A stretch of 64,000 nt of DNA from the NCBI GenBank assembly GCA_963924555.1, contig OZ004583.1, forward strand, positions 1,707,501 through 1,771,500. Reading direction: 5' to 3'. Each line of letters begins with the position of its first letter. The stretch's first letter is position 1. The notes beneath the pieces are model-generated. The model saw nothing but the letters and a program-made list of their open reading frames with translations, did not search any database and had not been told where the DNA came from. Shown in pieces: positions 128 to 36,000 of the stretch. Source of the DNA: Crambe crambe. Taxonomy: Eukaryota > Porifera > Demospongiae > Poecilosclerida > Crambeidae. A program made the translations under genes and the position numbers.

Positions 128-9650
<9,523 letters not shown>

Positions 9651-9875: not shown

Positions 9876-11980
9876 ATGGGCCAACACTTGAGCAATTCTA
9901 CTAATAATATCACTGACGATAGAGGTTGGTGCTACAGAGAACCTGGCTGCAAAATTGCTGGAGTGGCTGAAGTTCAGCTGCAGGAAGACCCAACTATGAC
10001 TTGGATGAACTCTACCAATATTACTTCGTCCTGTACTCTAGCAGTCTGCCCTTACATACTTGCATACTCCATTGATAATTCAAAGTTAGTATATAGCTTC
10101 AATATCATAGACTACATGGTGCTACAGCTAATCATAATGAGACCACCTCTCTATTAAGGTCACTCCATGTCCCAACAGGATCTATTCCCAGCTATTCTGA
10201 CCTCCTAAAGAGACTACCTATATGTCAATATCACTTATCCGATGATTACAAGGGTCTCTTTTATGCGATGTATTTTAAGGGTTATAAACTGCCCTTGCAA
10301 AAGTTCATGTCAATGAATCAACTTAATAGATCCTTTTAAAGTAAAGTAGCCCACTTTCTTCAAATATTTGTGTAAGTCAAACACATGCTTGATATAAGGC
10401 AGTGATTAGAATTGGTTTTATCAGAGAGGTAACAGTATGGTCAAGATATTACAGCAGGAATGCATGTACATGGAACTCTCTCTTCTTTCTTTGCCTTGTT
10501 TCCCCACCCTTAGTGTTCGAGTATACGACTTGGTGCTATTGTTCTTCAGTCTGGTCTTCCTTGGCTATCTGCTCATCCGTCTAGTATCCACCGTCAAGAA
10601 ACTCCGTGACAGTCTTCCTCTGTTCAGGGTCCTCTATTTCATGGTATGTGGAATATACATTAACTCAACTCAATGGGTCAAGTGATTGTTCATGCACAAA
10701 CATGGCAGTACATACAGCATTCCATTTGATTGACCATTAGGAATGAAGTTATCCCTCCCCTTGCAGTGTTCTCATGAATAGCCCTGGTTTCACACATCAA
10801 GGGGTATTCGTGGTTAATTGACCACATTTAAGGGAAGATATACCTGGAAGGCCAGGTAGAACACTGCCTTACGCTCCCCTCCATTTTGATTGTGATAATA
10901 ACTATGCTAGTAGTAGACAAAAATTGCTGATTCCAATCTGGAGTGGAGCAGACTTTATGAGCAAAGCATTCCAATATCTTTTGTGCTGTTGTCCCATCAT
11001 CAATGGAGAATACATAGTTTAGTACTTGATAGAGACCCTTTCAGTGCTATAAATTTCTCACTTGAAGATTAGTATGATTATTGATCACTGTTAATTACAT
11101 TGTACGGTACATGCTTAGACAGAGATATCATTCAGGATCAATTCATCAGCGACACAATTATTGTTGGTTTAAATTGTTAAGTAGTCTCTGAGTGTGTGTC
11201 GGTGTAATCTGATGACAGAGTGGTGGTTTTCAAGTAGCAGTGTATGCACATAACACTGAATGGTGAATTTCAATGGAGTATGTAGTTCAGAGCACAGCAC
11301 TAAGTTCAGAGCACAGCACTAATAACACCATAAATGGCTGTTCATTATAGCCACTCCCTAAAAGTTAAAATACACATTTTTTTGGTCTGTATTATCCATA
11401 GGAAACAAACTCTCTTTAGAATGTGTCATGTTTGTGATAGCTACTCTACTATTTCATTTTCAATTTTTGTTATGAATTTTTTTTTTCCTGCAGGTCTTCC
11501 TAATACCAGTTGTAAGTTGTATCTATGAAACTGTTTCCATGACCACAAGTTACCGCAGCATAGCATCCAAGGTGAGAATTTCAGTTGAGTGTGTGTGTAT
11601 TTAAGTGCGTAATTTAATAGGTAATCTTATCCTTACTTCTCTTATAAGTAAGATAATTTTCATAGCATTTCCAGGTAGAAATAAGTTCTAGTGAATGTAT
11701 TTTTACCTTATTAAGAAGTAAAGGATGAAGGGAACTATTAGTAATGGGTCGGCATGAATTTATTATTTTTTGTGCATGCAGGTGACACATGTGTTGCTAA
11801 GAGGTGCAATTCTCATGACTGAACTTGCTGTTGTCTTCTTTGGCCTCTTTATCAGTAAGTCATTGCAACATTATACATACACTGCCTTTTTTAAAAATCT
11901 GCAATGTGGCCGGAAATATTGAGTTGATTTTATGGATTGTGTGCCTGGTAGTGGCTCTCACTCTCAATATGTCCAGCCAT

Positions 11981-12037
<57 letters not shown>

Positions 12038-15000
12038 GGTGCTGTACATAATGATCACGAGTATAATAATGCCACGCAAAGCTGATCACCTGATCATATA
12101 CACGCAGATATTTTGTAGAGTAGGTATCCAACTGCCCATGAGGTAAGTTTTATATAAATATAGTGGGGGATCCTATTTCTAATGGTCACTTCACTTGATA
12201 AAGCCACTTATAATGATTTCGTTGTCACTAAAAATAGCAAAGGTTTCAATATTTTCTTGCCTGTGAGCATTGTTATAGGTTCTACTATGTAGGTAAGTAC
12301 TATTATAATAGGGAGGAAGATCAAATGTGTAAGTGGGGAGGGGCATCCAACACGGGGACAAATATCTGCTATAGAACAACACGAGGACAAAAACCTGCTA
12401 TAGAAAAAAAAATCAAATACTATACCATCAAAATTAATGTCAGGTCCGTTATAATTTGGCCCTGCCTCTGAGGTAGCGTTCCATTGTGCCATTTATATAA
12501 GCCCAGAGCTTGACATGATGTGGAAACACATTGACAAACAATTAAAATTAATACAGATCATTATTCAGTGGAAAACATTCCCATAACTATGTACACGATA
12601 AATATGAAAATAACATGTATTAAATAATAATATAAAAAAACCCCCAATGCTCTCAGAACAGAGACTAGCTAGTATACATTTCTGAGAGGAATTCATGAAG
12701 AGACTCAATTCTCAGTACTTTATCCAGTCCAAAACAGGTAGCGGCCAAGTGGGCTTTGGTTAGATTGAGCAGGCTTGGTGGTTGGAGCTGCAGCTTCTGA
12801 CCGAGGAAAGTCACGAGCTGTTGGGCATTTTCCCTCTCCTGCCATTGGGAAGGGTAGAACCATGGTACGCTCACCATGTAATCCATCAGACCTTCTTGCA
12901 CAAAGATCTCCCTTGTGATCTGACACTGTAGGACATTGGACAGGCTAAAGATGCCACATTGAATACAGCACCTGGATAAGAATATTAATATTATCACTGC
13001 AGTGGAACCTCTGATAAAGGACACTCTGAAAGAGTTGACAAACTTCTCAACAAAGGGGTCCCAAGTGTGGAGTGTACATATCAATGTCAATAAACAGTAG
13101 ATAATCTCGTTATTTAGAAATTCCTCAGTGAAACGCAATATAGCCATTCTTAGGGTTTTCTCATGCACACACGTATGTACTATCATGAGCTAATCTAGTG
13201 TCAGAGTACTATTCAATGACCACTGTATATTTGTAACAGGTAAAATATGATTATAACAGGTAAAGTATGACTGTAACTGGTGAAGTACGATTGTAATTGC
13301 AATCACATGTCCACTAACCTGTCTAGTCTCCTCATGGCTTCACTGTCAACCTCGTCGTAATCAGGACACACTAGACTTCTTGATGGGTGTGAGAAAGGGT
13401 GGTAAGCTAGTTTCATGAAGGGAATGAGAGTCGACCACTTGTAGCCATTGTTGACTTCTTCCTCCCTTATCTCTGTGTAGTCGGCTGAGGCAAAAAATTC
13501 CTCCATGAACTGTAGGATGTTGTGCTTCTTCTCCAGTGGTACCAAATGAGGGGAGATGGTCAGTACTTGTGCAAAGAATACACAAGCAAAATACCTACAT
13601 TTATATAGATATCATATATGAGGCTCTAGGATAATACATTTTCAATGTTATTTTTGGGGGGTGAACAGGTGGACCTCATTTTTTTCCCTTTCTCTATGAT
13701 ACTTTACACGAGCTATAACACTAACAGTCTCCAACATATTAATGGAGCCTATTGTGTAGTATTGTACATTGGCTGTGTAGGATTACATTGGCTATGTAGT
13801 TTCAATGTAAGCCACCAGATTTACAATGATCTCTCAGCTTCATTCAGATAGCTATAATACTGGTGACGATTAACTCACTTGAGTAGAAGCACATTTGATC
13901 TCCTTTGCTTCTCCGACATGGTGTAATACATACGATGCATGCTACAAGCTTTCAGTATTCCATCTATGATCACAGGTGTAGACACCAACGCGTGTGTTTC
14001 TGGGCTGTATGCAAGACAGAGCATTCCTGCCATTGCGATGAGTGAGGCTATGTACTTGTATGTAGGGGTCATCAATGTAGCTACCAGCTGCTTCAGTACC
14101 TTCTTATTTGAAGCTATCTGCATCCGACATTCTGGAATTTCAGCCAAACTGCAGGCAAAAAAAAAAAAAAAAAAAAGGCGTACAAAAAATCATAAATTGG
14201 CACAAGGTGGGGGTAGCTAAGTTCAGAAATTCCATATAGCTGTCCTTGAGTGTCAGCTAGCTATCAATTTATGCTCTACCTAAAGGACGTAACCCTCCAT
14301 AGTTGGCATTTCTGCTGCTAAAAAAGTTTTTTCAACCTCGTAAGTAAAACCTAGCAATAAAGAAAGTCCGTAAAGAAATAAAGTATACATGGTGCACATA
14401 ATTCAGTGATTTGGGGGTATCAGGATGGTGAGAACTGTGCAGTATACAGGAAGCAATGGTACACTGACAGTATATGTCAATGAAGAAACTTGGAATTAAC
14501 CTATTACAAGATGTATTAAATCAAAGGGGCAAGATTTAGCTATACATTCAAGAGAGATTACATGTGACTTGGGACTTACTTGCACAGGGTCCCCAGAGCT
14601 TTGTAGACGACCTCACAAGCAATGCGGTCCAGTTCGTATTTAGGAACTACTCTAGATGCAAAGGTGTTATGTGGTGCTTCCATGATTGAGTTTTCCTCCA
14701 CTTGCACTCGTAGGAAGGACTGGATTACACTGTCAAGAGATGCAGGGTGGTGCAGTACGAACATTCTCACGGAAAATGCTGCTGTTAGATTCCAGTACAC
14801 TCTCAAAATGGCATGTTCCAAGTACTGGAATTTAAGTGGTGTGTTTGACCAAGGCTGTTTCAGCAAGACAGTATGGAGCTTGTGAAGCATATTAACACCG
14901 TTGCCATGCACAAATAAAATCCTGTTGACTTCAGCTCGATCTGATGAGCATGGTGTAAAGTAAACCTGTGCTAGGCTATTAACTTCTTCGTAAAAGACAT

Positions 15001-18000
15001 TCAGCATTATCCGAGAATCCAATTCGTCATTGAATTTCTTCTTGTTGAGTTCGTTTTGTATTGACTCAATGAATGAGTGAGTATGGACAAGCTTATCAAT
15101 AATCTCTAAAATATCAGTCACATCTCCTTCTGATACATAACTGACGTGCACTGTATCGCCATCTCTGATGTGGTAAAAAGACAGCGGTATGCTATCATCA
15201 TCTAATTGAATTGCATCAAAACGTAGACACTGACAACACTTGGGGATGCTGAACTCTTTCTGGATGCATAGTTTAAGATCACTGACTGTCAAAGGTTCTT
15301 TATCCTTGATATATAGAGTCTTTTCTTTAATGGATTTATTTTCTCCAGTACAGTTCAGCATTACAGTGAAGGAGATGCCATGATCGGTACTGAGGTTGGA
15401 TTCTGTGTCCTGCTGTGTAGTAGCAGACTGTAGGAGAGACTTGGAGTGGTTTGCAGCCAGTTCTTGGTCTGGTTCTGGTTCGACAGTGTCAACGTTCACT
15501 TCTCCTTCCTTCAGGATGTCCAGAGGGTTAGATTTCTCTTTATTTTCAGTTACTTCCCCTTCTCTATCCAACTCGAGAGTGTCATCTTCTCTGGGAGGAG
15601 TAGGATCATCAGCTTTCGTCGTTGCGTTCCCCATCATGCTCGCTCAGCATCTTGGCAAACACGCTGAGTCAGCAAAATATTGTAACATGATTACGTAATC
15701 ACAAACCCAACAAAGATAATAATTATAACAGTCATGTGTGGTCATAATATTTTTCAACTATTTCATGCACGGATAGTTTCAAAGTCTTCTTCAGTCCAAA
15801 GTGCATGATTGCCAGCTTTGCCCTGGCTATGTTGATCAGTGAAGGAGGCTGGAGCATCATCTTCTCGCTCATATAGGACACGACTGCACAGGCTCTTCTG
15901 TGGGCTCTAATCCCAGCAGGCACCACCCAGGGAAGGCTCACCACAAAGTCTAGCAGTCCATGCTGCACTATAGAGTTCCTCTGATACTCTCCCAAGATTT
16001 CATACTGGAGACAAACGATTCCAAATTCCACACAAAGCTGTTTGAGTTTTCTCATCATTTTGTTGTGTTCTGGACTGTAGGAAGGATTTGTGGGCCGAAG
16101 TGGAGAGTATATTAGGGATATAGTTGGCTCGAGGTCCGAGCAAATGAATCTATACTTGTCTCTGTGTTGTCGTATTCTGACGTGATCGGCACCTTGGAGG
16201 AAATTTTCCAGTATGTGGCAAATCTTCCCCTTAAAGGGGAGTGGTATGATGTCGGAAGAGTGGGATACTAATTCGGAGAAAAAATTAGCTATAACCGACC
16301 TGTATTGAAAAATTAAAGTGGATTTAGTGATTGTCATAGCTGTTTTGTTTTCAGTTAAAAGATGGTTGCTCATAGCCCTGAGACTTAATAATCATGTGGG
16401 TTTGTTATTATTATACCTCCTTATTCTTTCTATAATAGCCATTCATATTACTATGATGATACTTACTTTAGGATCATAGTGTCCAAGAGAAATTGGTTAC
16501 GTGATGCATATGCCCTTCTGTGGTGATACTTGTAGATTGAGAGTACATTCAAAATGATCTTTGGTGATGTCAAATAGACATGTGCATCTATGCTAAATGC
16601 AACATACATTAGCTAATAGTAAAAAATTGAAGCATCTGTAATGTTATATACTTACTGGCTGGATAGATTTCCGAGGGTTACGATTGCAGTAAGGCTGTGA
16701 GCAAACTTAAAGTTTAGCATGAAAGCAAATAACTGCTGCATGACAGTCTCATTGGATGCTATCTTCATCTGGTATTGCTCTATCTCAGCCAGGCTATAAT
16801 ACAGACCATAATTAATAACATGGTATACTTCTCAATGCAGACATATTTGGGGCCAGATCTATTGCACTGGGATAGAGGGGGTGTCAGGGGCAGATCCAGA
16901 GAGGAGGGGGGGGGGGGGGGGGGTTATGGGGGTTGCATAGCTGTTATTTTGGGATTGAAATGTCAAGGAAGAAGGATTCAAGTGGCTGTATCAAGTTGAG
17001 TGCTATGTTTCGTAAAAGGTAGGAATATAACTAAGAACTATAGTGCTATAAAATCTAGAATCTAATTCTACTGTGCCACCAATTGATCATGCCAAGTTAG
17101 TACTACTGCTCCTAAAATAGGTGTAAGTGGGAGTGATGCATTCCTGCCTATCCAGACACTCCAATTGTCCCAGAAAACTTTTCCAAGCTTCTTTGTTTGA
17201 TAAGTGATCTAGTTTGAGCAATAGACAAACACTTTAGAAAGTGGTTGGCCATTTGCACCAAGGGCCAGCAGTTATTTTAACTTTTGGGCACACAGCAAAG
17301 AAAGAAAGTTTTTTTTTTTACAAAAATCAATGAGGGAGCTGATGATTTAATTGGTTTGGCCTTAGGAAAATGTATTTGTGTGAGAAATCAAAAAGCTCTT
17401 AGTGATATGGATAATAAAGGTATTTAATCTACCTTAACTGGGGTCTCGGGTCATTATTTACTAAACAGCTTCTGTAAAGTCTCCATGCAGACCAGCAAAA
17501 ACAAGAGTGTGTACTTCATACCAATTGTAAACAGTAACGGTATACCTTACTGTTTACAGAGAGCATTCAAAAGATATGCAGTAAACACTTTCACTTTCAG
17601 AGTGTAGCTAGCTTAGAGGTGGAAAATTTTGCAGCAATAAAGTGAAAGCCGTGTGCACATGGCCATCGACAATGCTTAATTTCTGATTGTTAAATTCTCA
17701 TGTTTTATTGCCTACTATATTTTTAGTTCCGTGTGCCAGTCTCATAGTGGTAGAGACTGCTTTAATTTTCATAATGCACACAGACCAAGTTAGCATTAAA
17801 AATGTAGACCAAATTAGCTAGCTAGTAATTAAAATGCAGATAATGTAGCTAGCTAGCTACACAGCTCTACATGTTAGAATGCAGCTGGAAGTGTATTGAT
17901 TTTTGGAGGAAATTTAATTAGTTTGGCCTAATGAATAAAGCTATTCTATATATAGGGGACTTATCAGATGTACTATTTTTAGCTTCCCTCCCCTGCGGCT

Positions 18001-21000
18001 ATGCAGCCACATCGGCTTACCATGCAATTAGTTGAACCCCCTCATTTTAAAAAGCTGGTGTATACCCCCACTTTAAAAATTGCTGGATCTGCCCCTGGGT
18101 GCATGTGGAAGCTATTAGCTATATGCAAGCATTGCTGTACAATGATTCAAAAGTAAGATATAGCACCTGCTGCAAGACATCTTTGCAAGCAATTCATTTG
18201 ACACTCCTCTATATAGCTCACCCAAATTGCATAAAAATATTCAACAGCTAAATGGAAATGATCGATCGACCAAATTTCAGTATGGGGTAGCCAACCAAAT
18301 TTGCTTATGACCAATCAAATTGGATCTCTGGCTAATGCAATCCTGTGCCCCTATCTAAGACTAAAGTATACCATACTTGGATGTGTTGATTAGGGACATT
18401 TCCAGAGAGTTGATCAAAATTTCATCCTGCATTGTTTGGGAGACAGAAATTTGCTCAAAAGGTCCACTGGGAGCTACAATCTTCTGATGTTGGGGAATCA
18501 GCACTCGAGTGAAGGATTGGAGTGTATAATCTACAGTGGTATCTCTCATTAAGAAGGATCTATGAACTATTACTCTATTCATAGCAAGGATTGCCACACT
18601 TTCAAGAATTCTGATGAAAAAAACTGCTTTCTCATAATCTGTACGTAACACTAGACCATACAAGTTGTATAAGACATCTAAGCCACCTCTGTGCACAAAC
18701 AAAGTTGTATTGGTTGATGATCTTAGTGGAGGCTCAGAATTGCACAGTGTGGACAAAATGAGTTTACGGATATCTGCAGTAGTAACACAATGTTGCTGCA
18801 TTTGATCAGCTGATATTTTTGTAAGCATACGTGTACTTGAATGACTTTCTACCACTCCCAACAGCCTCCTCAAGGTCTTAATAATCTTCATTACATCATT
18901 CACATCAGCATCTGTATCATACTTGACTACTATAGTGTCTCCCTCTCTGATCCAGCTCTTAGCCAGTGTATCTTCATCTCTCAGGGGCGTAGACTCGAAA
19001 TACAGGCTCTGACAGTGTGCTGGTATCTGATATTCTTTCTCAACACACTCCTTCACTTCAGAGACTTTGACTGAATCTGGATTTTCGGAAGCAATAAACT
19101 CGTGTTCCACTGTCGAATTATCCAAAGTGCAGTGGAGAGACAATTTTAGAATGGGCCTATGCTCCGCTTGAAATTGCAATCCTTCCATAGCCTACCGCTC
19201 AGATTGACTTGCTGCCACAAAAATTAGGGGTGTGGCATCAATGAGCATCTGATGTGTTTGCTGAGCAGATAAGATTAGCTAGTTCTGACTGCAGGAAAGC
19301 AAAGAAGAGTAGCTATGACAAACGTGCATATGTTATAATAGATCCACAACACAATGGAGATTAGCCTGACAAGCATGGATCCAGTTTTTTGCTTCTGAAC
19401 TTGATCTAAATGTCTAGCTATACCATGCAATCAAATCATGTGATGAGTGGGTTGGTAGTAATGAATAACACATAACTTCATAAGTGCACTAGCTAGCTAT
19501 ATGAACTAAGACGTTTATAGAAGCTATAGCTAGCTAAAACCAAAGATATGGACAACATCAGTAATAATTCCTTGCAGTAGGATTCATAGCTAATCACTGT
19601 TGAAAAGTTTTTAAAATTTCCAAACACTCAAATCACATGAGATTTATCTCCAAAATTCACCTCAATCTATGAATACCACAGAAGGTTGTAGCTATATTTC
19701 ATCATTTTGTTAAAGAAGCACATGGCTATCATCTCCTTTTGGCAAACACGCCAAGTCAGCAAATTAATATCACACAAATAATGATAATGCACTTTTTCAC
19801 TGAAGAAATCAGTCATGTGTGGTCATGATATTTTTCAACTATTTCATGCACGGATAGTTTCAAAATCTTCTTCAGTCCAAAGTGCATGATTGCCAGCTTT
19901 GCCCTAGCTATGTTGATCAGTGAAGGAGGCTGGAGCACCATCTTCTCACTCATGTAGGACACAACTGCACAGGCTCTTGTGTGGGCTCTAGTCCCAGCAG
20001 GCACCACCCAGGGAAGGCTCACCACAAAGTCTAGCAGTCCATGCTGCACTATAGAGTTCCTCTGATACTCTCCCAAGATTTCGTACTGGAGACAAACGAT
20101 TCCAAATTCCACACAAAGCTGTTTGAGTTTTCTCATCATTTTGTTGTGTTTTGGATTGTAGGAAGGATTTGTGGGCTGAAGTGGAGAGTACATCAGGGAT
20201 ATAGGTGGCTTGAGGTCCACGCAACTGATTCCATACTTGTCTCTGTGTTGTCGTATTCTGACATGATCGGCATCTCGGAGGAAATTTTCCAGTATGTGGC
20301 AAATCTTCCCTTTAAAGGGGAGAGGTATGATGTCGGAAGAGTGGGATACTAATTCGGAGAAAAAAGTAGCTATGACCGACCTGTATTGAAAAGTTAAAGT
20401 GGATTTAGTGATTGCTCATGGCCCTGGGAGTACAGTGGAACCTCCGAGTAATTGGGATCAGCCACTTTACCCTTTTTAGAGAGGTTGTCCTTTTCTCGGA
20501 GGTTAAAAATGTATTAACGCTATATGGGAAAGGGGCCCAAAAGAGCGTCCTTTGTTGGGAGGTTGTCTTTTTCCTGGAGGGTCCTTTATTGGAGGTTCCA
20601 CTGTATGGGGTCTATAGTTATTCTACCTCCAAGCCATTCATAATATTACTATGATGATACTTACTTTAGGATCATAGTGTCCAAGAGAAATTGGTTACGT
20701 GATGCATATGCCCTTCTGTGGTGATACTTGTAGATTGAGAGTACATTCAAAATGGTCTTTGGTGATGCCAAATAGACATGTGTATCTATGCTAAAGGCAA
20801 CATACGTATAAAAAAAAATGTTAGTGTTATAATTATACTTACTGACTGGATAGATTATCGAGGGTTCCTATTGCAACGAGGCTGGGGGCGAACTTAAAGC
20901 TTGGCGTGAAAGCCATTGAAAATAACTGCTGCATGACAGTCTCATTGGATGCTATCTTCATCTGGTATTCCTCTATCTCAGCCAGGCTGTAATTATACAG

Positions 21001-24000
21001 AGCATAATAATTAATAGCATGGTACCTCTCAATGCAGACACACTGGGGCCACAGGATAGAGGGGGGGGGGGGGGGGGGGGGGTGGTTCCTCATGGAAGCT
21101 ATATGCATAATAATTATGTATACACTCCAAATAATGGACACCTCTCTGTAAGGACACTTGTTGCTGTCCCACCATAGTACTTTGTCAATGTGAACAATTT
21201 CAGTGGCCCTAACTTGTCTGTTGTTCGGAGGTTCTAGCTTAGCTTACTTTGAGGTGTTGACTTGTGACATTTGCAGGCACATGGCCAGCACTTGATTCTG
21301 AACCTCTTGAGGGACAGAGAATTGCTCGGTAGGGCCCTTTGGTGCCTCTATTCTTTGCCTGTGGGGAATTAGCACTCTAGTAAAGGACTTGAGGGTGTAC
21401 TCTAAAGTAGGATTGTCAAGAACCAACTGTCTGAGGATTGGAAATCTAGTGCTCGAATCTATCAGTGTGCTTCCTATCACTTGAATAAGTACACTTTCCA
21501 AGTATCTGATTTGGAATGAGGCTTCTTGGTAGTCCATTTGCAGTATTAAACTGTATAATTTGAACAACGTTCTTACGCCATCTTTGTGGACAAATAGGAG
21601 TCTGTTGGCATCTGATCTCTTTGATGCATCTCTGAAATTTGTAAAAATTAGCTCACGAATTCTTTTGAAATTGATGCCTTGCTGTGCTATTTGATCTAGT
21701 TGATTACTTTGATGACATCTCTCTACCTCTTTTAGTATATCTTTCAGAGTCTTCACCACCTCATTGACATCATTCACATCAGCATCTGTATCATACTCGA
21801 CTGCTATAGTGTCTCCTTCTCTGATCCAACTCTGCACCAACGTGTCCTCGTCTCTCAGGAGCGTGGACTCGAAATACAGGCTCTGACAGTGTGCTGGTAT
21901 CTGATACTCTTTCTCAACATAATCCTTCACTTCAGAGACTGTGATTGAATCCGGATTTCCTTTACAGATGAAATCCCGTTTTACCTCTGAATTATCAGTT
22001 GTGCAGTGAAGAGTTAGTAGTAGAGTGTACCTCTCTCCCTTGTTTTCCGAAGAGGAGAGTTTTTCTGGGACAGGCAGTTCTTCAACTTCCATCCTGTCGA
22101 GTCAGCAAAATATTAACAACGCCGATTACGTCATCAGAATGGGAGGTCATTTGCGCGCGCGTTTTGACGCCGGCGCGGCGGCAGCGCAGCTATAGCGCGC
22201 GCTAGCTAGCTTGAATAATTAACAACAAATGCAAAGCACACACAGTTAGGTCAAGCTAAAATGATCTATATCAAAACATGTATCACCGGCACTATTATGA
22301 TATTCATGAACTAATTCGTGGACAGACAGTGTCAAAGTCCTTTTTAATCCAAAGTACATCTTTGCTAGCTTTGCCCTTGCTATATTGATTAATGAAGGAG
22401 GCTGCAGCAGCATCCTTTCATTCAAGTATAATAAAACTGCACGAGCTCTAGAATATGCTTTTGTCCCAGCAGGTACCACCCATGGAAGGCAAACTACAAA
22501 ATCCAACAATCCATTCTGAACTAAATCAGTTTTCTCATACTCCCCTAGAAGTTCATATTGGATCGCTAAAACTCCAAATTCCAGGCAAAGTTCTCTGAGT
22601 TTGATGATCATGGCACTATGTCTTGGATTATACTGAGGGTTCACAGGCTCAAGTGAAAAATAAGGCAGGGAGATAGCTGGTAAGAGGTTTGTGCAGATGT
22701 ATCCGTATTTATCCAGACGTTGCTTTATCAGTATGTGATCAGCATCTTGAAGAAAATTCTCTAGAAAGTGGTAGATTTTTCCCTTGAAGGGGAGGGGGAT
22801 GATATCAAAAGAGCAAGAAATCAGTGCAGAGAAAAAAGAACCCATGAGAGACCTAATGAATTAAAGCAGATGGCAAAAACTGATAATGTCAATGGTAGCT
22901 AGCTATACTTACTTTAGGACCATAATATCCAGTTGGAACTCAGTTTTTGATGAATAACCCTGTCTTTGTTGGTGTCGATAGATGGAGAGTGCATTATTGA
23001 TGATTGTAGGTGATGTTAGGTATACATGTGTAGCATCATTACTATACCAAATAAATAAATAAATACCTAACTTATTATGCAGTGAATCATTATAGCTACT
23101 TACTGCTTTGATAAGAAGTCAAGAGTACCCACTGCCATGTAGCTTGAAACAAAATCTGAGCTGGGCGAGAAAGCTGTGGAGAACATTTGCTGCATAACAA
23201 CATCATTGGACGCTATTTTTATTTGGTACTCTGGTAGCTCTGCCAAGCTGCAATAGAGTAAAATAACATCACACACCTTATTGGGGCTTGCTATACATGG
23301 TCCAAAAAAGGATAATAGAAGGACATGCATGCACACTGAATCAACTTTCAGTATACCTTCAAACATTGTTATTCTGCTTACGTACTTTGAGATATTGACT
23401 TGCGATTCTTGTATAGTTATTCTTAGCACTTTATCATTCCATGATTGATTTATGTAATCCAGTTTTGGCAGTTTTGGCGCCACTATCCTTTGCTTGTGAG
23501 GTATCAGCACTCTAGTGAAAGACTTGGATACACAGTCCAGAGTTGGATTCTCCAAGACCAGCTGCTTGAGGACTGGTATCATAGTGCAAGGGTAGACGAG
23601 TGCCCTACCTATCATATAAGTAAGCACACATTCCAAATACCTTACCCGGAAGACAGTCTTATCATAATCTATTTGAAGTATTATGTCATATATATTAAAC
23701 AGTGCCTCAATGCCACCTTTTCGGACGAACAAGAGTCTGTTTGCATCCGATCTCTTTGATTTGATTTTGAAAACTTTGAATATGAGGTTACTAGCTCGCT
23801 TAATATCAGCCTCTGAGATGATGAAATAGAAATCCACACTGCCAGTGTGGACCAATGTTTGATAGTAACTTTCCACCGCCTTCAAAATCACCTTCAAAGT
23901 AGCCACTAATTCATCAATGTCATCGACATCAGCGTCGGTATCATACTTGATAGTGATACAGTCTTCTCTGATCCAACTCTGGGATAGTATATCTTCATCT

Positions 24001-27000
24001 CTCAGGAGCGTGGACTCGAAATACAGGCTCTGACAGTGTGCTGGTATCTGGTACTCCTTCTCAACATACTCCTTCACTTCAGAGACTGTGACTGAAGCTG
24101 AGCTCGAGATGAAATCACGTTTTTCCTCAGAGTTGTTAGCTGTACAGTAAAGAGCAAGCTTTAGGATCCATGTTGCAGCAGTATCATTTTCTTCTTGGTG
24201 CAGGTGTGACATTTCTTAATTTGTGCTGACGTAAGCACAAGTGACGTCATAGAAGATTATGTGACGTAATATATGCGCGCGCATGTTTGAATGACGTCAT
24301 AGAAAATGATCGTGTGCGCGTGCGTGCATGAAACCATAGATAAACGAGGGGAAACTAGCTAATAATATTCTTCAATTAATTCATTGACAGAGAATTCTAG
24401 AACTTTTCTTAATCCAAAGTGCATCTTTGCCAGCTTTGCCCTGGCTATGTTGATCAGTGAAGGAGGCTGGAGCACCATCTTCTCACTCAAGTAGGACACC
24501 AGCACACGAGCTCTCTCATATGATTTGCTCCCAGCAGACATCAGCCAAGGCAGACACTCTACATAGTCTACTAGTCCTTGAGAAACCAAACTATCCCTTT
24601 CATACTCTCCAATCAGTTCACGATGAGTAAAGTATACTCCAAACTCCACACATAGTTCCTTGAGTTTTATCATCAAGTCATTATGTGCTGTGCTGTAGTA
24701 AGGATTGGTTAGTCTGAATGGGGCATATGGCAGGGATAGAGGTGGTATCAACCTCAAACCTGTATGCCCTTTTATTTGTTCTCTTACAGTGACAGGATCA
24801 CCATCTTGAAGGAAAATGTGTAGAAAGTGATACATTTCTCCTTTAAGGGGGAGCGGAATGATATCAGCTGAGTAAGACACCACTTCAGAAAAATATAGAG
24901 CTATGGTTGATCTGTGTAGGGGGGAAATATGTGACTGGTAGTGCAATCTTTATTTCTATAGACTCACTTTAGGGCCATGGTGTCCTGGTTTGCATAATGA
25001 TGCTGCCTATTAGCTGATAACACATTTTTTATAATTGATGGCTCTGTCAGATGTACATGAGTACCTATACTGTTTAATTAGATTTTAATCACATAAATAA
25101 GTCAAGCCTATAGCTAGTAGGTACTTACTGAAAGGATAACTGACCAAATGTAACCATTGCTACATATCTATATACAAATGATTTGAAAGTGGGTGAAATA
25201 GCCGCAGATAGCACCTGCTGCAAGACAGCATCATCGCAAGCAATTTTCTTTTGACACTCCTCTTCTAGTTCACTCAAACTGTATTAAAATATTCAAAAGC
25301 TAAATAATGCATAGCCAACTGCTTATTTAGTGATTCACAGTCCTTATTTGTTTGTGACATAGCTAGCTATAGTACAACCCTGCCCTAAGTACATACTTTG
25401 ATGTGCTGACTAGGGATCTTTCCAGAGACTCGATCAAGTTTCGATCTTGCACTGCCTGGGTGACAGAAAATTCCTCAGAAGGTCCACTGGGAGCATGTAT
25501 CTCCTGATGATGGGGAATTGGCACTCGAGTGAAAGATTTGAGTGTATAATCTACAGCTGCATCAAGGTTTATTTCTCTTAAGAAGGATGTCTTAGAGTAA
25601 GACAATATCACTCCATCCATAGCTTGAATTATCATATTTTCCAGATATCTGACTAAAAAAACTGCTTTCTCATAATCTATATGTAACACTAGACCATACA
25701 AATTGTATAACACGTCTAGGCCACCTCTGTATACAAAGAAAGTTGTATTGGCAGCTGATCTTTGCTCAGAATCATTGGACAGTGTAGAAATAATGAGTTT
25801 ACGGACGTCATTAGTGGTATCACAAAGTTGCTGCATTCGATCAGCTGATATTTTTGTCAGAGTACTTGAATGGTTTTCTACAACTCCTAATAGCATCCTC
25901 AGGGTCTCAATAATCTTCATTACGTCATTCATATCAGCATCTGTGTCATACTTGACTACTATAGTGTCTCCTTCTCTGATCCAGCTCTTAGCCAGTGCAT
26001 CTTCATCTCTCAGGAGTGTGGACTCGAAATACAGGCTCTGGCAGTGTGCTGGTATCTGATACTCTTTCTCGACATAATCCTTCACTTCAGAGACTTTGTG
26101 ATTTTCAGAAGCAATAAAATCATGTTCCACTGTCGAATTATCCAATGTGCAGTGAAGAGATAATTTTAGAATGGGCCTATGTTCATTTTTTTTCGCTTGA
26201 AACTGCATAGCCTGCTCAGATTAACTTGCTGCGCCACAAAAAACAAATCAGGGGGTGTGGCACTATAATGTACACGGTGCATAGGCAAGATAGGCGGCTA
26301 AGGCATAGACCAATGGGCAACATTTGACAGAAAGCGAGCGAGCAAGTTCGATGAGTTTGCCTGAGCACTGGTATGACTCAGTTTAATAAACTGCACGAGA
26401 AATAAATATTAAACAAAGAACGGTACACTGTAAAAACGAAAGTGTGTACTGCACACTAAATTGTCCCAATGCACACACCAAAAACAAAACAGTGTGTGTA
26501 TTGGGACAATTTAGTGTGCAGTACACACTTTCATTTTTACAGTGTAGCTATGACAAACATGGGGACAAATAGCCAAGATCCACAAATACAACGGAGATTG
26601 GACAAGCAGTTCTTTTTTCTTTTTCTTCTTTTGAATTTTTCTTCTTTTTTTGCTTATCTAATGTCTGCCATTTTATCAATCAGCTAGCTGTCATAAATCA
26701 TGTGATGAGTGGATGATAGTTATGAATATCATATACTTTATAAAGTGTTTACATTCAGTTTGGGAGTACAGAGTCAACTATAGATATGAATTTCAAATCA
26801 GACTGCTAGCTAGCTACCATGGCTTATTTTAATCTCTTCTCAATCACAGAAGGTTCAACCATAGATAAATCTATGATTCAACAGGATTAGCCATTTTATC
26901 AATCAGCTAGCTAAGCTCATGTGATGAGTGGATGATAGTTATGAATATCACATAAGTGCACTGGGTATAAACAACTAAGTGTCAGTTTGATATGGATTTC

Positions 27001-30000
27001 AAATCAGACTGCTACCATGGCTTCTTCAGAATTCACCTCAATCACAGAAGGTTCAACAGCATTAGCTATAGCTATTTCATAGGAGTACTAAGGACAGAGA
27101 TAAAGTCTGCTGATGAAAAATGTGCTGACTAAGCAAAGAACCAATAGGCTATGGAAGATTGACCAGACTCTCTCTCTTTGAGTGTGAGTCTGAGAGTCCA
27201 GCTACACGAGACCAAGTATCAAATCATGAATGTAAAGGTTCAAAGGTTATTCAACAATGTGTCGAGTATCATAACTGAGGTATACTCTTCAATATTAAAT
27301 AGAAAATTTCAACTCAATCCAAAGTCCATCTTTGCCAGCTTTACCTCAGTTGTTAGCTGTACAGTGAGGACCAAGCTTTAGGGTCCATCTTGCAGCAGTA
27401 TCATTTTCTTCTTGGTGATCAGCAAAGTTATCTAGTGACATTTCTCATAGCAGATTAATTTGTGCTGACACAACCACAACAAAGTGATGTCATAGAAAAT
27501 GTGACGTATGTGTATGTGCGAACATATTTGGATGACGTCATAGCAAATGATCAGCATATATAATGTGTATGAAACTAATAAAGTTGAAAATACTCATCAA
27601 TTAATTCATTGATAGAGAATTCCAGAACTTTTCTCAATCCAAAGTGCATCTTTGCCAGCTTTGCCCTGGCTATGTTGATCAGTGAAGGAGGCTGGAGCAC
27701 CATCTTCTCGCTCAAGTAGGACACCACCACACGAGCTCTCTCATATGATTTGCTCCCAGCAGACATCAGCCAAGGCAGACACACTACATAGTCTACTAGT
27801 CCTTGAGAAACCAAACAAGTCCTTTCATACTCTCCAATCAGTTCAAAATGAATAAAGAATACTCCAAACTCCACACATAGTTCTTTGAGTTTTATCATCA
27901 AGTCGTTATGTGCTTTGCTATAGCAAGGATTGGTCAGTTTGAGTGGGGCATATGGCAGAGATAGAGGTGGTATCAACTTCATACCAGTATGTCCTTCTCT
28001 TTGTTCTCTTACAGTAACAGGATCACCATCTTGAAGGAAAATGTGTAGAAAGTGATAGATTTTCCCTTTAAGGGGGAGCGGAATGATATCAGCCGAGTAA
28101 GACACCACTTCAGAAAAATATATAGCTATTGCTGATCTGTATAAGGAGGGAAAATAAGTGATGGTTATAGTAATCTACAGTTTCATGCATGCATATGCGG
28201 AATTGTTTCAACGATAAGTAGCTAAGCACCACTTCAGAAAAAAGCTATTGCTGATCTGAAATGGCTAAGTGATCTACAATTTCACACATATAGAGTTGTT
28301 TCGATTTCAATTTATGATCACTTCATGTTTTGAATGCAGTACAATCTATAGTGAGTGGCATCATACATATTTCATTTAGACTCACTTCAGGGTCATAGTG
28401 TCCAGGTCAAACTGGCTTTTTGATGCATAAGCCCTTCTTTGATGCTGCCTATTAGCTGACAACACATTATTTATAATTGATGGTTCTGTCAGATACACGT
28501 GAGTGCCCATACTGTTTAATTATAACAGACATTTTAATCACCTGAATAATAATAAGTCAAGCTTATACTTACTGAAAGGATAAGTTACCAAGTGCCACTA
28601 TCGTTATGAATCTATAAAAAAATGATTCAAAAGTGGGTGAAATGGCTGCAGACAGCATCTGCTGCAAAACAGCATCATTGCGAGCAATTTTCATCTGACA
28701 CTCCTCTAGCTCACCCAAACTGCATAAAAATATTTAACAGCTAGTGAACTCCCTCTAATCAGGACCCCTGAAATGAGGCCACCCCTGTATTCAGGACACT
28801 TTTAAATGTAGATATATACTTTATAATATAAATCTACCCTGAAATGACTCACTTCTACTGGCCCTGGATGTAAGTGCATGAGAAAAACATATAGCTACTC
28901 TGTAGTGGTTTCCCATGATGTAATGCCTGCATGCTGCACACTATTGCCATAGACTACATGTGGTCACTGCAGATTGTTTTCAGTATGGAACTATAGCTAA
29001 TATTATGCATACTTTGATATACTGAGTAGGGAATTCTCCAGACTCTTGATCAAAATTTGATCTTGCAGTGTCTGGGAGACAGAAAATTGCTCAGAAGGTC
29101 CACTGGGAGCTACTATCTTCTGATGATGAGGAATCGGCACTCGAGTGAAGGATTTGAGTACATAATCAACAGTGGTATCCAGGTTCATTTCTCTTAAAAT
29201 GGGTGTCCTGCCAATTGAACATATCAATGTATTGACAGCAGTGATTACCACACTTTCAAGAAATCTGACGAAAATAACTGCTTTCTCATAATCTGTACAT
29301 AACACTAGACCATACAAGTTGTATAACACATCTAAGCCACCTCTGTACACAAACAAAGTTTTATTGGCAGCTGATCTTTGCAGAGGCTCAGAATTAAATG
29401 TGGACCTAATGAGGTCACGGACATTCTCAGTAGTGACACAAAGTTGCTGTGTTTGATCAGCTGATATTTTTGTAAGAATGCTTGAATGCCTTTCTACCAC
29501 TCCTAACAGCCTCTTCAAGGTCTTGATAATCTTCATTACATCATTCACATCAGCATCTGTATCATACTTGACTACTATAGTGTCTCCCTCTCTGATCCAG
29601 CTCCTACCCAGTGTATCTTCATCTCTCAGAAGTGTAGACTCGAAATACAGGCTCTGACAGTGTGCTGGTATCTGATACTCTTTCTCAACATACTCCTTCA
29701 CTTCAGAAACTGTGACTGAGTCCGGATTTTCAGAAGTGATAAACTCATGTTCCACTGTCGAATTATCCAATGTGCAGTGAAGAGATAGATTTAGAATGGG
29801 CCTATCCTCACTTTCTTTCGCTTGAAACTCCATTGCCAAAAATTTATGCGAAGCTAGCTAGCTAGCTAGCTCGAGGTATTACGTAGGCGGCTAATCATGT
29901 GATCAAGGTTCAAAGGTTATTCAATCTTCCCGTATGAGGTACGTGCACATTCTGCTAGCATTTCTTTTGGCAGGCAGGCAGGCTTTTTAATGCTTGCTAG

Positions 30001-33000
30001 CTTAATAGGCAAGCTCGTTTTATGCCTGGTACAACTACATCATACTTGCATGTGATCAAGCACATGGCCGACCACTTTACTTCATTTTTTATGCTTCTAC
30101 AAACTCCACTGGTACTATCTCTGAGATGCTAAGTAGTGCTAGTATTTCACTCCCTAACGTTTCACTATTATCCAGTTCATTTTCATGTCAGCAAGAGAAT
30201 TCTCTGGAAGACTATGTTGAAGCTTCTGTTTTATTACAATAGAATGATGAAAATACTAGCATAATTGAAGCATGATAGGTAGTGCAAGTGAGCAGAATAG
30301 ATAACAGTTGTTAGCATAATTAGCTAGCAAGCTTGGAATTAGAGCAGAGCATAATTTGGCAGAATGTGGATCGGTAGACTATTGCCAGACCTAAATTCGA
30401 TAGTCTACTGATCCTCAGTGAGTCGAGACCTCAAAATTGGCTTTTCACTCACACAATTAATTAAGGTTCAAAATATATAATTTAGCATCATAGTACTCCT
30501 CAATTAATCCATTGACAGAGAATTCCAGAACTTTTCTCAATCCGAAGTGCATCTTTGCCAGCTTTGCCCTGGCTATGTTGATCAGTGAAGGAGGCTGGAG
30601 CACCATCTCCTCACTCAAGTAGGACACCAGCACACGAGCTCTCTCATATGATTTGCTCCCAGCAGACATCAGCCAAGGCAGACACACTACATAGTCTACT
30701 AGTCCTTGAGATATAAAATTAGTCCTTTCATACTCTCCAATCAGTTCAAAATGAATAGAGAATACTCCAAACTCCACACATAGTTCCTTGAGTTTTATCA
30801 TCAAGTCATTATGTGCTGTGCTATAGTAAGGATTGGTTAGTCTGAGTGGAGCATATGGCAGAGATAGAGGTGACACAAGGTTTACACCAGCGTGCTCTTC
30901 CCTTTGCTCTCGTATAGTCACAGGATCAGCATCCCGAAGGAAATTGTGTAGGAAGTGGTAGATTTTCCCCTTAAAGGGGAGAGGGATGATATCAGCTGAA
31001 TAAGATACCAGCTCAGAGAAATATGCAGCTATCACTGCTCTGTGGAAAAGATTTATAAAAATTATCCCTTATCCAACATGTTGAAGCTGATCTAATATAG
31101 CCTCGTCCCCAGGCCCTCTATATATATATACTTATTACTGTGCATGCATGGGGAACAAGGCTAATCTAACAGATAATCTCATTTCTTTCTTTCCCACCAA
31201 AAATCTGGCGACTTACTTTAGGGTCATGGTGTCAAGAAGAAACTGACTTTTTGAGTTATATGCCTTCCTTTGATGATGTCTACTAACTGATAACATGCAC
31301 TCAATGAGAGTGGGTGATGTCAGATATACATGTGTACCTCCACTGTGGAATAAAAGGCACAAGTTTAACATCAAACTAATTGAGCAGCTATAATTATGTG
31401 TGCATATCAAAAGTCATAGGATGTAAGATACTGTTATACCTCCAATTAATGGACACACTTGGGATCCAAGCCTTTTGTCCTTTGTTAGAGAGGTTGTCCT
31501 CATTTGGAGGTTAATTTTATATAGTGTATATACAAGGTATATTTTATTTTTTGGAGTGTCCTTTATCAGGTTCCTGATCAACATACTTAGTGGATAAATA
31601 ACCAAAGCCATCCAGTGCCAAGCGTATAGAAAATATATCAAAAGTGGGCGAGAAGGCTACAGACAATAACTGCTGCATAACCACATCATTGGATGCAATC
31701 TTCACTTGAAACTCCTCTACCTCACACAAGCTGAAAAAAATAATAGAAAATGGGATCATTCGGGAGAAGGGAAACAATTCATTATTGGCCCATGTAGCTA
31801 CTACTGTACTTGCGCATATATATATATTAGTGTAGACTCATGTCCCCTTCCCAAGATCTCCTTACTGGTAAAAATATTATAAGTAAACATGCACCGAATA
31901 TATACTTTGAGGTGCTGAGTATAGACTCCTCCATAGATCTGATCAGGATTCGATTTTGTACTAACTGATCATAAGCAATGGTGAATTCCTCAGTAGGTCC
32001 ACTAGGAGCAACTATCTCTTGATGATGAGAAATTGGCACTCGAGTGAAGGACTTGAGTGTATAGTCTAATGTGGCACTGTCCACATACAGCTGTTTCAAA
32101 AGAGGTATTCTACCAAATGACACTATAAGTATCTTGCTTACAGCTTCAATGACCACATTTTCTAATAATCTTATCAGAAGAACTGATTCTTCATAGTCTG
32201 TCTGTAATACCAGGCGGTATAAGTCATACACTATATCAAATCCACCTTTGTGCAAGAACAATACTCTGTTGGCATCTACTCTCTTGTATTCATCATAGTA
32301 ATAAAATGTGGAATTAATAAGCTTGCGGAGATCCTCAGTAGTAGCACAAAGCTGTTGCATTCGATGAGCTGAAAATTCTGCAAGGATGTTGGAATGTCTT
32401 TGCACCACCCCCAACAGCATCCTTAGAATGCTTATGATCTTATTAACATCATTTACATCAGCATCTGTATCGTACTCGACTACTATAGTGTCTCCTTCTC
32501 TGATCGAGGTCTTAGCTAACGTGTCCTCGTCTCTCAGGAGTGTGGACTCGAAATACAGGCTCTGACAGTGTGCTGGTATCTGATACTCTTTCTCAACATG
32601 CTCCTTCACTTCAGAGACTGTGACTGAATCCGGATTTTTAGAAGTGACGAAATCATGTTTCGCTGTTGAATCATCCAACGTGCAATGGAACGACAGATTT
32701 AGTACGAGGCTACCGTTCATTTTCTTCCACTTTGCTTGTAAACAAAATTAATTGTAATTGTCGAGTCAGCCTTAGTCACGTGATTAATTATCTCATGCGC
32801 GCATGCGCAAACTAGATATCATTTTTAGTTACTGATAAGGTAAAATTTCATTAATTATTTCTCCAACAGTCATCTTTAGTACTCGTTCCAAACCAAAATG
32901 CATTACAGCTAGTTTGGCTTTCACGAGGTTAATAAGTTTAGGGGGTTGCAATGGAATACCAGACCCCACAATATGCACAAGTGTTCTAGCCTCAGTTTGA

Positions 33001-36000
33001 AGTGGCTCAGGCACATAAGATGGTATGCATGTGATATAGTCTTCTAATCCCTCCTTTCGGAGAACTTCTTTGTGATTATCTCGTCCCAGCATATTCTGCA
33101 AGCTCAGCAATGCTGTCTGCAGACTGAGCATGTGCAGCTGTTTCATCATTGTATTTGGTGGATGGTGCATGTGAGAAGGAAGGTATGCCAGCTTAATGTA
33201 GGGGATGAAAGTTGACCAGACGTACCAATGCTTCACTTCCCCGTCCATGATGTCTCGGTATGTAGCAACTTTCAGAAAATCATCCATAAAGTTGAAGATT
33301 TGTTGCTGGAAATCCTCTGAGATGTGTTGGGGAGAGACAAGGATGATTTGTGCTAGGTAAACCTGAGTGAAGTACCTGTTAAGGTAGAGTGGGACAAGTT
33401 CAGAATAGCTACTGCTGCTGACATGGTACAGTGGAACCTCCCAAATGATGGACACACTTGGTTCATTGTAGAGAGGTTGTGTATAGAGTGTATATACAAC
33501 GGTGCTTTTAGATTGTCCTTTGTTGAGAGGTTTGTCCTCTTTCAGTGTGTCCTTTATCGGAGGGTTCCACTGTAGAGCAGGGTTTCACACCTTGGGGGGG
33601 GGGGAAGCTCACCAATCGCGTGGCCTTAGGCCACAGCAAAGGGGAAGGTGCGGGAGGTCTCCTCCCAAAATGCTTACTACTCTGAAGTATCCCGAATTGG
33701 TCCTTAATTACTCTCTTTGGTGACTACATGTAACAATTAACCCGTGGTCACCAAAGGGAGTAGCCTTCGGGGTTTGGGGGGGAAGCTTCCCCCCTGCATC
33801 CCCCCCCCCCCCCCAGTACATGAAACCCTGGAGAGGGTTAGTCTTCATCTCTTTTTACCCCATTTTACTTCTCTGCGACACACAACTAACCTCAGCATGA
33901 GCATATCCCTTCTCTTATCATTGTCATCATCATCATCAGTGAATACTCGCTCCTTTGCACAAGCACTTAAGAGCCTCTTGATCACAAAGGGCTGGGCAAG
34001 GAAGGGGTGAGTGTCGGGAGTATAAGCAATGCACAAGAAGAGAGTAGCAACTAACTGGACAGACATGATGCGCACAGAAGGACAGAGGGAAATGCAGGAG
34101 AGCTGTTCAAGGCATTCTTGGTTGGAGGCTATTTCAAGGTGACATTCGGATAGTTCACTCAAGCTATACATGTGTGTGCATTAAAGATAAAGCCTCACAA
34201 GGAAGGACATAATATGAAAGGCACACAATGTCAACCCAAACAAATTGCATGCTTACTTGCACAGCAGTCCTAAGGCAGCTCCAATATTCTCTACCAGGAC
34301 CCAACTATTATCCCTGTGATTCTGACACTCTGTGTAGTCTTCAATCTTTTTACCCTCTGTCACCTTCTCTCTCAGCAGTGACTTGATGCAGAGCTGGAGT
34401 CCATTATTGCATGCTATGATTTGTCGTCGCAGCGCAAATGTCTCAGATAGATTCCACAAGATTCTTAGAATCCCATACTCAACGTATTTCAGTTTCAATG
34501 CACACTCTTTCCAAGGACGTCGATGGAGTGCCACAAAAATATCCATCACTACATTCAGTCCTCCACACTGTACAAAGTATAACTTGTTGGCATACTTGCA
34601 AGCATCCAGCCATGGGAAAAGGTATTTAAAGGCCAGATTTTCTATGAACTCTTCGTTTATTCCTACAATCAAGAGGTCGTCAAAATCAGTACTGATCCTG
34701 TAGAGGACTGGATCCTCTAGAAGTAAAAAATCTCTCACTTTCACAAACCATGTTACTACGTCCATGATTTCTTCACACTGTCCCTCTGCCAAATATTCGA
34801 TCCGAAAAGTGTCGCCCGATCGAATCATCGTTATTTCTAAGTTAGTATCGTCTCTTAACTGATGAGTCTCGTAGGTCAAGTTTTGGATGCAGAGAGGGAT
34901 GTTGAATTTCTCCTCCACTTTGAATTTCAGGTTCGCGATGGTGGTAGGCGCTTCGTCTTCTGGGAATGAGATGGTTGTATATTTTGTGGCCTTGGTCTCG
35001 GTGCAGAATAGTTCAACGTTGAAAGTGATGGCATTTTTTTCCAGGGTTGTGGCGCTCCTAGCTAGAAAACTAGAATGATAGCTAGATTCCATGATCACAG
35101 CTTACTAACTAGACTTGACTTGTCAACATCACGTGATGATGTAAATAGTAAGAGAGGCGCGCGCGAGTTCATCATGTACAGCATGCACCCTAGGCATTAT
35201 TACTAACCAAGTTTATAATATAGAGCTCTGTGGTAACAGTGTGATCAAATTATCAACAACTGTGGCTACAATTATAGGAATTTCCTTGGTATTCACTATT
35301 GCAGAGGTAAGAAACAACTTTCTTTATTCACCATGCAATCCTATAACCCCCCTAATATAGGGTATTTTGGAATTTTATAATCCAAATCAGTTGGCCTGTG
35401 ATGATTTTAAGTTCTTCACTCATGGTGGAATGATATTTCTCTTCTGTACTTCAATCATTTTTGCTTTGGTGAGATCATTAGAAGTGCATAAGTTGATGAT
35501 GGAAGTCCTGACTTTCCTGATTCATTATTTCAATGGCTGTATGTGTGTTATAACTTTCTTTTTAATACAGGCCTATGCAACTATATTTATTGTTTATATA
35601 CTGGGACTGTATCGTCGCTGGGATCTACCATGTAAGTGATAACTCGTATATGCATAGCTATTTACTCTCATCTCTTATCTCTTTTGACATCCACACACAG
35701 CCAAGAAGTCTTTTTATCGTTACGCACTCTTCCTGTCACTGGTGAATGTAGTTCAGGCCATAGGGAGCATTTTATGGTTCACTGGTGAAAATAATCCCAA
35801 CACTGGAAATGCTGGGATATGGTACGTATGCAAGACTTGGTGGTAACTAGATAGTCATTATAGTCTGGCTAATACAAATGGTGTCCTGAAACCTTATGAG
35901 GTAGTGGAAGTCAATGTTTGTTTCTTTGGATGCAGCTTAACCATTTTCGCAAATGTGGTTTATGTGATTACTTTTGCTCCTATGGTGTACTGGATCTTCC

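Follow-up and report, generated by a model that had tools for sequence, protein, structure and literature searches.

A recombining tandem array of eight genes with predicted ubiquitin-like domains within one intron of a TPRA1-type gene model of the sponge Crambe crambe

The DNA analyzed here, called the window, is a stretch of 64,000 nucleotides (nt) of the C. crambe genome (contig C5, positions 1707501 to 1771500); the genome searched comprises 143 megabases (Mb) in 119 contigs. At the center of the window, between positions 12665 and 35092, eight related minus-strand genes, A to H, are arranged head to tail on the strand opposite to that of a TPRA1-type host gene, in the fourth intron of which they appear to lie. 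On the basis of splice site reading and a match to the Pfam family Tmemb_40 (PF10160), exons 1 to 4 of the host were placed on the plus strand at 9876..11854 (9876-10084, 10514-10643, 11494-11571, and 11782-11854) and exons 5 to 10 at 35224..36473 (35224-35306, 35361-35468, 35571-35631, 35701-35821, 35936-36016, and 36218-36473). Tmemb_40 is the family that includes TPRA1, the name given to the host in an earlier reading of the window made by sequence inspection (here, the sequence-only reading). When the 10 exons of this model are spliced at GT-AG sites, an intact product of 399 amino acids (aa) is obtained. The nine introns measure, in order, 429, 850, 210, 23,369, 54, 102, 69, 114, and 201 nt, and the fourth (11855..35223, plus strand, GT-AG) is the one that holds the array.

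Comparison of the gene models with the host model placed every exon of A to H within host intron 4. The Tmemb_40 match runs continuously over the junction of host exons 4 and 5, and the whole protein scores 102.9 bits in one stretch. Scored separately, the halves encoded by exons 1 to 4 and exons 5 to 10 reach 34.2 bits (profile positions 3 to 98) and 67.2 bits (profile positions 109 to 249), respectively. When the host protein was compared with the genome, all 10 matches listed were the host locus itself (only the best candidates were scored). The continuous domain, the intact frame, and the single locus among the matches listed therefore lend good sequence support to the proposal, already made in the sequence-only reading, that the array sits inside a single intron of an intact host gene. 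The host pre-mRNA would accordingly run through the array, all of which would be removed by splicing.

The models of the array genes, all on the minus strand, are based on splice sites read by hand. Genes A to G have four exons each: A (636 aa, a divergent member) at 12665..15637 (exons 15637-14580, 14148-13879, 13594-13319, and 12971-12665); B (547 aa, a fusion of an E/F-type exon 1 and C-type exons 2 to 4) at 15732..19188 (19188-18377, 16793-16656, 16592-16467, and 16299-15732); C (560 aa) at 19813..22092 (22092-21248, 20986-20843, 20790-20665, and 20380-19813); D (568 aa, outside the ubiquitin-like core the sister of a dispersed member on contig C16) at 22246..24212 (24212-23386, 23247-23104, 23041-22913, and 22852-22246); E (538 aa) at 24359..26208 (26208-25397, 25278-25129, 25069-24968, and 24911-24359); F (551 aa) at 27575..29833 (29833-29013, 28719-28573, 28511-28386, and 28136-27575); and G (555 aa) at 30457..32720 (32720-31906, 31730-31587, 31342-31217, and 31039-30457). 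Gene H (551 aa), also divergent, has three exons and is found at 32829..35092 (35092-34257, 34163-33891, and 33375-32829). All 23 introns of the array are GT-AG introns in phase 2. One intron present in B to G is missing from H, and the third intron of A is placed differently. The description of eight intact tandem genes of 538 to 636 aa that share one architecture thus agrees with what had been claimed before. The array limit given earlier at 12665 stands, and the one at 35098 does not, as it corresponds to an upstream GTG and the ATG of H is at 35092. The intergenic gaps, in order from H to A, are 108, 623, 1366, 146, 153, 624, and 94 nt, i.e., only 94 to 153 nt in four of the seven cases, and neither AATAAA nor ATTAAA is found within 400 nt past the stop codon in six of the eight genes. 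An operon-like reading of the array was considered because of the short gaps and the missing AATAAA/ATTAAA signals; nothing beyond these two features spoke for it, and it was set aside.

Outside the array, six further members were identified on four other contigs, C16 (one gene), C15 (one gene), C9 (three genes in tandem), and C12 (one gene), which brings the family to 14 genes. The search queries were exon 1 of C, exon 4 of D, the full H, and the C terminus of the C12 member, and the member counts are lower bounds. The three C9 genes form a second, separate tandem array (C9:2028673-2036341; L021 1174-8842). In addition, an isolated fragment of 120 nt with 96% identity to exon 1 of C is located ~124 kilobases from C (C5:1853184-1853303; L023 3685-3804). 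The C16 member is flanked by eIF2-alpha-like and laminin-like genes (named by eye), and no enclosing intron was seen around it when its local flanks were inspected. No relatives turned up in a scan of viral contigs or in one of prokaryote genomes, as expected for an animal family.

Each protein is predicted to begin with a ubiquitin-like domain (UBL) encoded in exon 1. In F, this domain covers residues 12 to 93 (29555..29800, minus strand, on the basis of the PF00240 match and alignment), and the other copies carry it at the equivalent position of their exon 1. PF00240 matched 12 of 13 members at an E value of ≤1 (best, 3.4e-11), and all four exon-1 frames tested exceeded its curated cutoff of 25.4 bits (32.9, 27.2, 42.9, and 33.8 bits). 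These profile matches bear out the N-terminal ubiquitin-like domain put forward in the sequence-only reading. A profile of 13 exon-1 sequences also matched ubiquitin chains in the PDB, with DSK2 among the matches, and the hydrophobic periodicity of the UBL, averaged over 13 members, has a weak, strand-like peak at 170 degrees (z = 1.7). By eye, no Gly-Gly follows the UBL in the 13 aligned members, the sequence passing straight into the helical part; the UBL would be an integral domain and not a conjugated modifier. Ile44 and Val70, which we take to be the residues of the canonical binding patch of ubiquitin, are replaced in all 13 aligned members, by Y, T, R, or C at position 44 and by K, E, S, or N at position 70 (the alignment to ubiquitin stops at residue 68 or 69, and position 70 was read onward without a gap). 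The usual binding patch of ubiquitin thus appears not to be kept, and the replacement of both residues weighs against the UBL being a plain ubiquitin mimic.

The ~450 residues downstream of the UBL are probably helical. Averaged over 13 members, their hydrophobic period peaks at 100 degrees, as is typical of amphipathic helices (z = 3.9 relative to 200 shuffles; highest of 13 angles), which is in line with the helical middle proposed earlier. No convincing match to this part was obtained in Pfam, NCBIfam, or the PDB, and no named family with the layout was found in Pfam or NCBIfam, as the sequence-only reading had also held. The matches set aside as chance were those of the post-UBL part to PDB entries (E values of 0.81 and 2.7), those of the last exon alone to PDB entries (best E value, 0.011, to a designed TIM barrel), that of one member to DUF5742 (E values of 0.013 and 0.042), and the weak Pfam matches to Tim44, TPR_TTI1_C, Intu_longin_3, and SNaCT8. 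For the armadillo-like character proposed for the middle in the sequence-only reading, results were mixed. The Pfam model Arm gave no match at an E value of ≤10 in nine members, and ARM_PUB matched one of the nine weakly (E value of 0.035). A home-made profile built from 12 Arm repeats of the same genome (15 were taken out of the 70 matches listed) gave 4.6 bits for C and 4.5 bits for B, a level that 1 control out of 663 (shuffled or reversed sequences) also attained; C and B share this region and are not independent. The scores of A, H, and the C16 member were 1.7 to 2.0 bits, a level reached by 10 to 11 of the 663 controls, and the five other scored members were unremarkable; 3 of the 13 members had no match.

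The history of the family was addressed with a maximum-likelihood tree of 13 of the 14 members (the C12 member, which is modelled only in part, was left out). The clade formed by B to G and the C16 member received support of 100/100, and D paired with the C16 member (99/97), a pairing that recurred in three separate non-UBL parts of the gene (100/99, 96/97, and 96/98). The six central array genes, B to G, are one expansion together with the C16 member. A topology holding B to G together without the C16 member was rejected outside the UBL (approximately unbiased [AU] test, P = 0.018; the group was named after the tree had been seen), so that the C16 member looks like a former array gene that moved to contig C16. 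A, H, and the C15 and C9 members form deep branches. The best account of these relationships is a lineage-specific family that grows by duplication and exchange within the intron.

Gene B combines two subtypes by recombination, its 5' half being of the E/F type and its 3' half of the C type. Silent divergence (pS) between B and F is 0.00 to 0.27 over residues 31 to 273 (five segments) and 0.34 to 0.95 beyond, and that between B and C is 0.25 to 0.81 in exon 1 and 0.03 to 0.16 in exons 2 to 4. Intron 1 of B (1,583 nt) contains a decayed E/F-type exon 2 (18160..18226, minus strand), which is 83% similar to exon 2 of E, with a net loss of 4 nt relative to E; together with the DNA preceding the exon (18160-18253), it is 83 to 84% similar to E and F. 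In the same intron, C-like intron DNA (81% over 63 columns) adjoins the live exon 2 of B. The F-like exon 1, the C-like exons 2 to 4, and the decayed E/F-type exon 2 thus indicate that an E/F-type gene was joined to a C-type 3' half. A further relic, at 27313..27417 (minus strand), combines 80 nt from the 5' end of a D-type exon 1 (90%) with 33 nt from the 3' end of an exon 4 (94% to F).

The whole-gene ratio of nonsynonymous to synonymous divergence (dN/dS), obtained by a simple count, was 0.15 to 0.46 in 11 pairs, indicating that the copies are maintained as proteins; it was below 1 in every pair for which it could be computed (silent sites are saturated between A and H, and no ratio is meant there). 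Positive selection was looked for at the whole-gene level and not seen. The earlier suggestion that the proteins diversify in the middle therefore holds insofar as the middle diverges and is less homogenized, but diversifying selection is not supported (dN/dS of <1 in 11 of 11 pairs). Within exon 1, pS was compared between the UBL core and the remainder. In 11 in-array pairs (all 15 minus the four closest, EF, BC, BF, and BE), the values were 0.35 and 0.71, respectively (ratio, 0.49; 0.35 to 0.66), and with all 15 pairs pooled they were 0.31 to 0.33 and 0.59 to 0.65. The three pairs of the C9 array gave 0.32 and 0.63 (ratio, 0.51; 0.30 to 0.72), and the C16 member compared with six array genes gave 0.62 and 0.68 (ratio, 0.92; 0.68 to 1.18). 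Since pS is also low near the C terminus (0.36 to 0.49 over residues 421 to 551 in the 15 in-array pairs), the UBL is not the sole part staying close. For the UBL core, D differs from the remaining array genes by a pS of 0.41 and from the C16 member by one of 0.62. Elsewhere in the gene, D has the C16 member as its sister, so that slow silent change in the UBL fails to explain why the UBL of D is closer to those of the array than to that of the C16 member, whereas conversion within the array can. There is moderate support for gene conversion within the arrays that would keep the UBL core alike while the helical part drifts apart.

Several observations count against parts of this account. The F-like stretch of B stops short of the start codon, residues 1 to 30 not being F-close (pS of 0.59); a warning from the tree software about meeting long branches (C15 with C9) applies to part of the deep branches; Chou-Fasman averages failed to distinguish the UBL from the remainder of the protein; and divergence at replacement sites (pN) exceeded pS in 8 of 288 pair-by-segment cells, including B-F over residues 141 to 200 and F-G at the C terminus, always by ≤0.04, which says little given the few changes. 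The remaining points concern conversion. The excess of D-C16 pS over that of D and the array genes in the UBL core (0.21) has a bootstrap interval of -0.02 to 0.45, with 3.9% of 1,000 replicates at or below zero, and in a tree limited to the UBL core the pairing of D with C16 survives the AU test (P = 0.39). Codon or regulatory constraint on the UBL, in place of conversion, is a doubtful explanation but one to be taken seriously: the core is short (~65 codons), and its poorly resolved tree leaves a topology without conversion standing. Constraint predicts, however, that UBL divergence is lower for D-C16 than for D and the array, and the reverse was seen, although zero lies within the interval of that difference; the same UBL depression is also present in the separate C9 array. 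It is scarcely credible that the host is broken or consists of two transcripts, which would leave no nesting. Its intron 4 is 27 times the length of its next longest intron, but a single unbroken Tmemb_40 domain, an intact 399-aa frame with GT-AG sites, and no second host copy among the genome matches listed all oppose such a split. Moreover, no methionine is present in the open frame entering exon 5 (35145-35360), which leaves host exons 5 to 10 without an obvious start of their own.

Our account as a whole, which we offer tentatively, is that the array encodes an unnamed family with an integral UBL and a helical body, nested and recombining, in which the proteins have a scaffold role. The A-to-H proteins would be intracellular scaffolds or adaptors, of which the shared UBL would dock one common partner via a surface other than the Ile44 patch of ubiquitin and the diverged helical parts would bind different partners. 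The strongest functional rival, though an unlikely one, is an ELMO-like role, with the UBL acting as a Ras-binding domain for a small GTPase and the helical part as a bulky scaffold beside it. ELMO1 and ELMO2 resemble the family in that a ubiquitin-like fold is followed by a helical body, and the N-terminal fold of ELMO1, solved with RhoG, precedes armadillo repeats (excerpt of PMC10023680). The loss of the ubiquitin Ile44 and Val70 positions in all 13 members is also expected for a domain with another partner. However, neither ELMO_ARM (PF11841) nor the ELMO domain model matches the post-UBL part in nine members, the sole ELMO_ARM match listed for the genome sits elsewhere (C5:6608894-6609373), and the UBL passes the curated cutoff of the ubiquitin family itself. 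We regard it as very improbable that the proteins are receptors of Cullin-RING ligases, in which the conserved C-terminal stretch PPSLINIARAKL would be a BC/SOCS box for Elongin C and the middle would select substrates. The motif spacing resembles that of SOCS boxes of this genome, such as VPALQHLCRGTI of L027, and of the 11 columns that are invariant in the last exon, 7 fall within P152-L169. Nevertheless, Pfam SOCS_box gave no match at an E value of ≤10 in 13 members (the program filters drop most weak matches), a profile of nine SOCS boxes from the same genome scored ≤1.0 bit on all 14 tails, the hhalign probability was 1.1% (local) or 0.1% (global), and all 14 members have Ala, Val, or Thr in place of the BC-box Cys. 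The BC-box-like C terminus of the sequence-only reading thus failed in every SOCS test. Finally, the array could be a recognition family, with the UBL as a docking end kept by conversion, divergent helical bodies that are recombined (e.g., in B), and an antisense position that ties expression to the host membrane-protein gene; we consider this distinctly unlikely. The Sp185/333 genes of sea urchins likewise form a tight tandem cluster for which conversion and recombination have been proposed (excerpt of PMC3091723). Unlike that immune family, the genes described here have a whole-gene dN/dS of <1 and few copies.

Compared with ubiquitin-system proteins with an integral UBL, such as DSK2, the scaffold family that we favor shares an N-terminal UBL matching PF00240 and PDB ubiquitin; it differs in that no partner domain such as UBA was found with Pfam in nine members and in the replaced Ile44 and Val70 positions. 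Genes within the intron of another gene are known from sponges and other animals, with 2,432 nested genes reported for Aphrocallistes vastus, a glass sponge, 3,358 for Amphimedon queenslandica, and a usual range of 5 to 10% of genes (excerpt of PMC10282587). Nesting itself is ordinary in sponges, and in Caenorhabditis elegans an opposite-strand nested gene can induce its host (excerpt of PMC12274878). The unusual features here are the number of paralogues in one intron, eight plus a relic, which have duplicated and recombined there, and the traces of exchange. No comparable nested array and no description of the family were found among the top-ranked results for open-access articles, which is not proof of absence. 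The dN/dS range, the depression of UBL silent divergence in two arrays, and the fusion in B are new. The locus offers a compact natural case of an intron that hosts a growing, recombining family without visible harm to the host coding sequence, and it adds for a sponge an unnamed domain layout, that of a ubiquitin-like domain followed by an unclassified helical body. Should conversion be upheld, the array also provides a test case in which a single domain stays uniform and the remainder of its exon drifts.

Other observations were made elsewhere in the window. Two adjacent similar genes on the plus strand (approximately 2197-2685 and 4350-5231) have a FYIGKS stretch in common (the similarity and the ends of the first gene were judged by eye), and the longer of them had no Pfam match at an E value of ≤0.01. 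The first is flanked by two tandem-repeat arrays (650-1400 and 3350-3850) with the common core ACTAATGACCAGGGATCACCTCCTAAT, as seen by eye. A 384-aa frame on the minus strand (48604-49758) is rich in cysteine and, by eye, seems to carry a signal peptide and to have one half repeated; it gave no Pfam match at an E value of ≤0.01. An open frame of 328 aa (61308-62294, minus strand) resembles, by eye, the terminal part of a reverse transcriptase protein from a retrotransposon.

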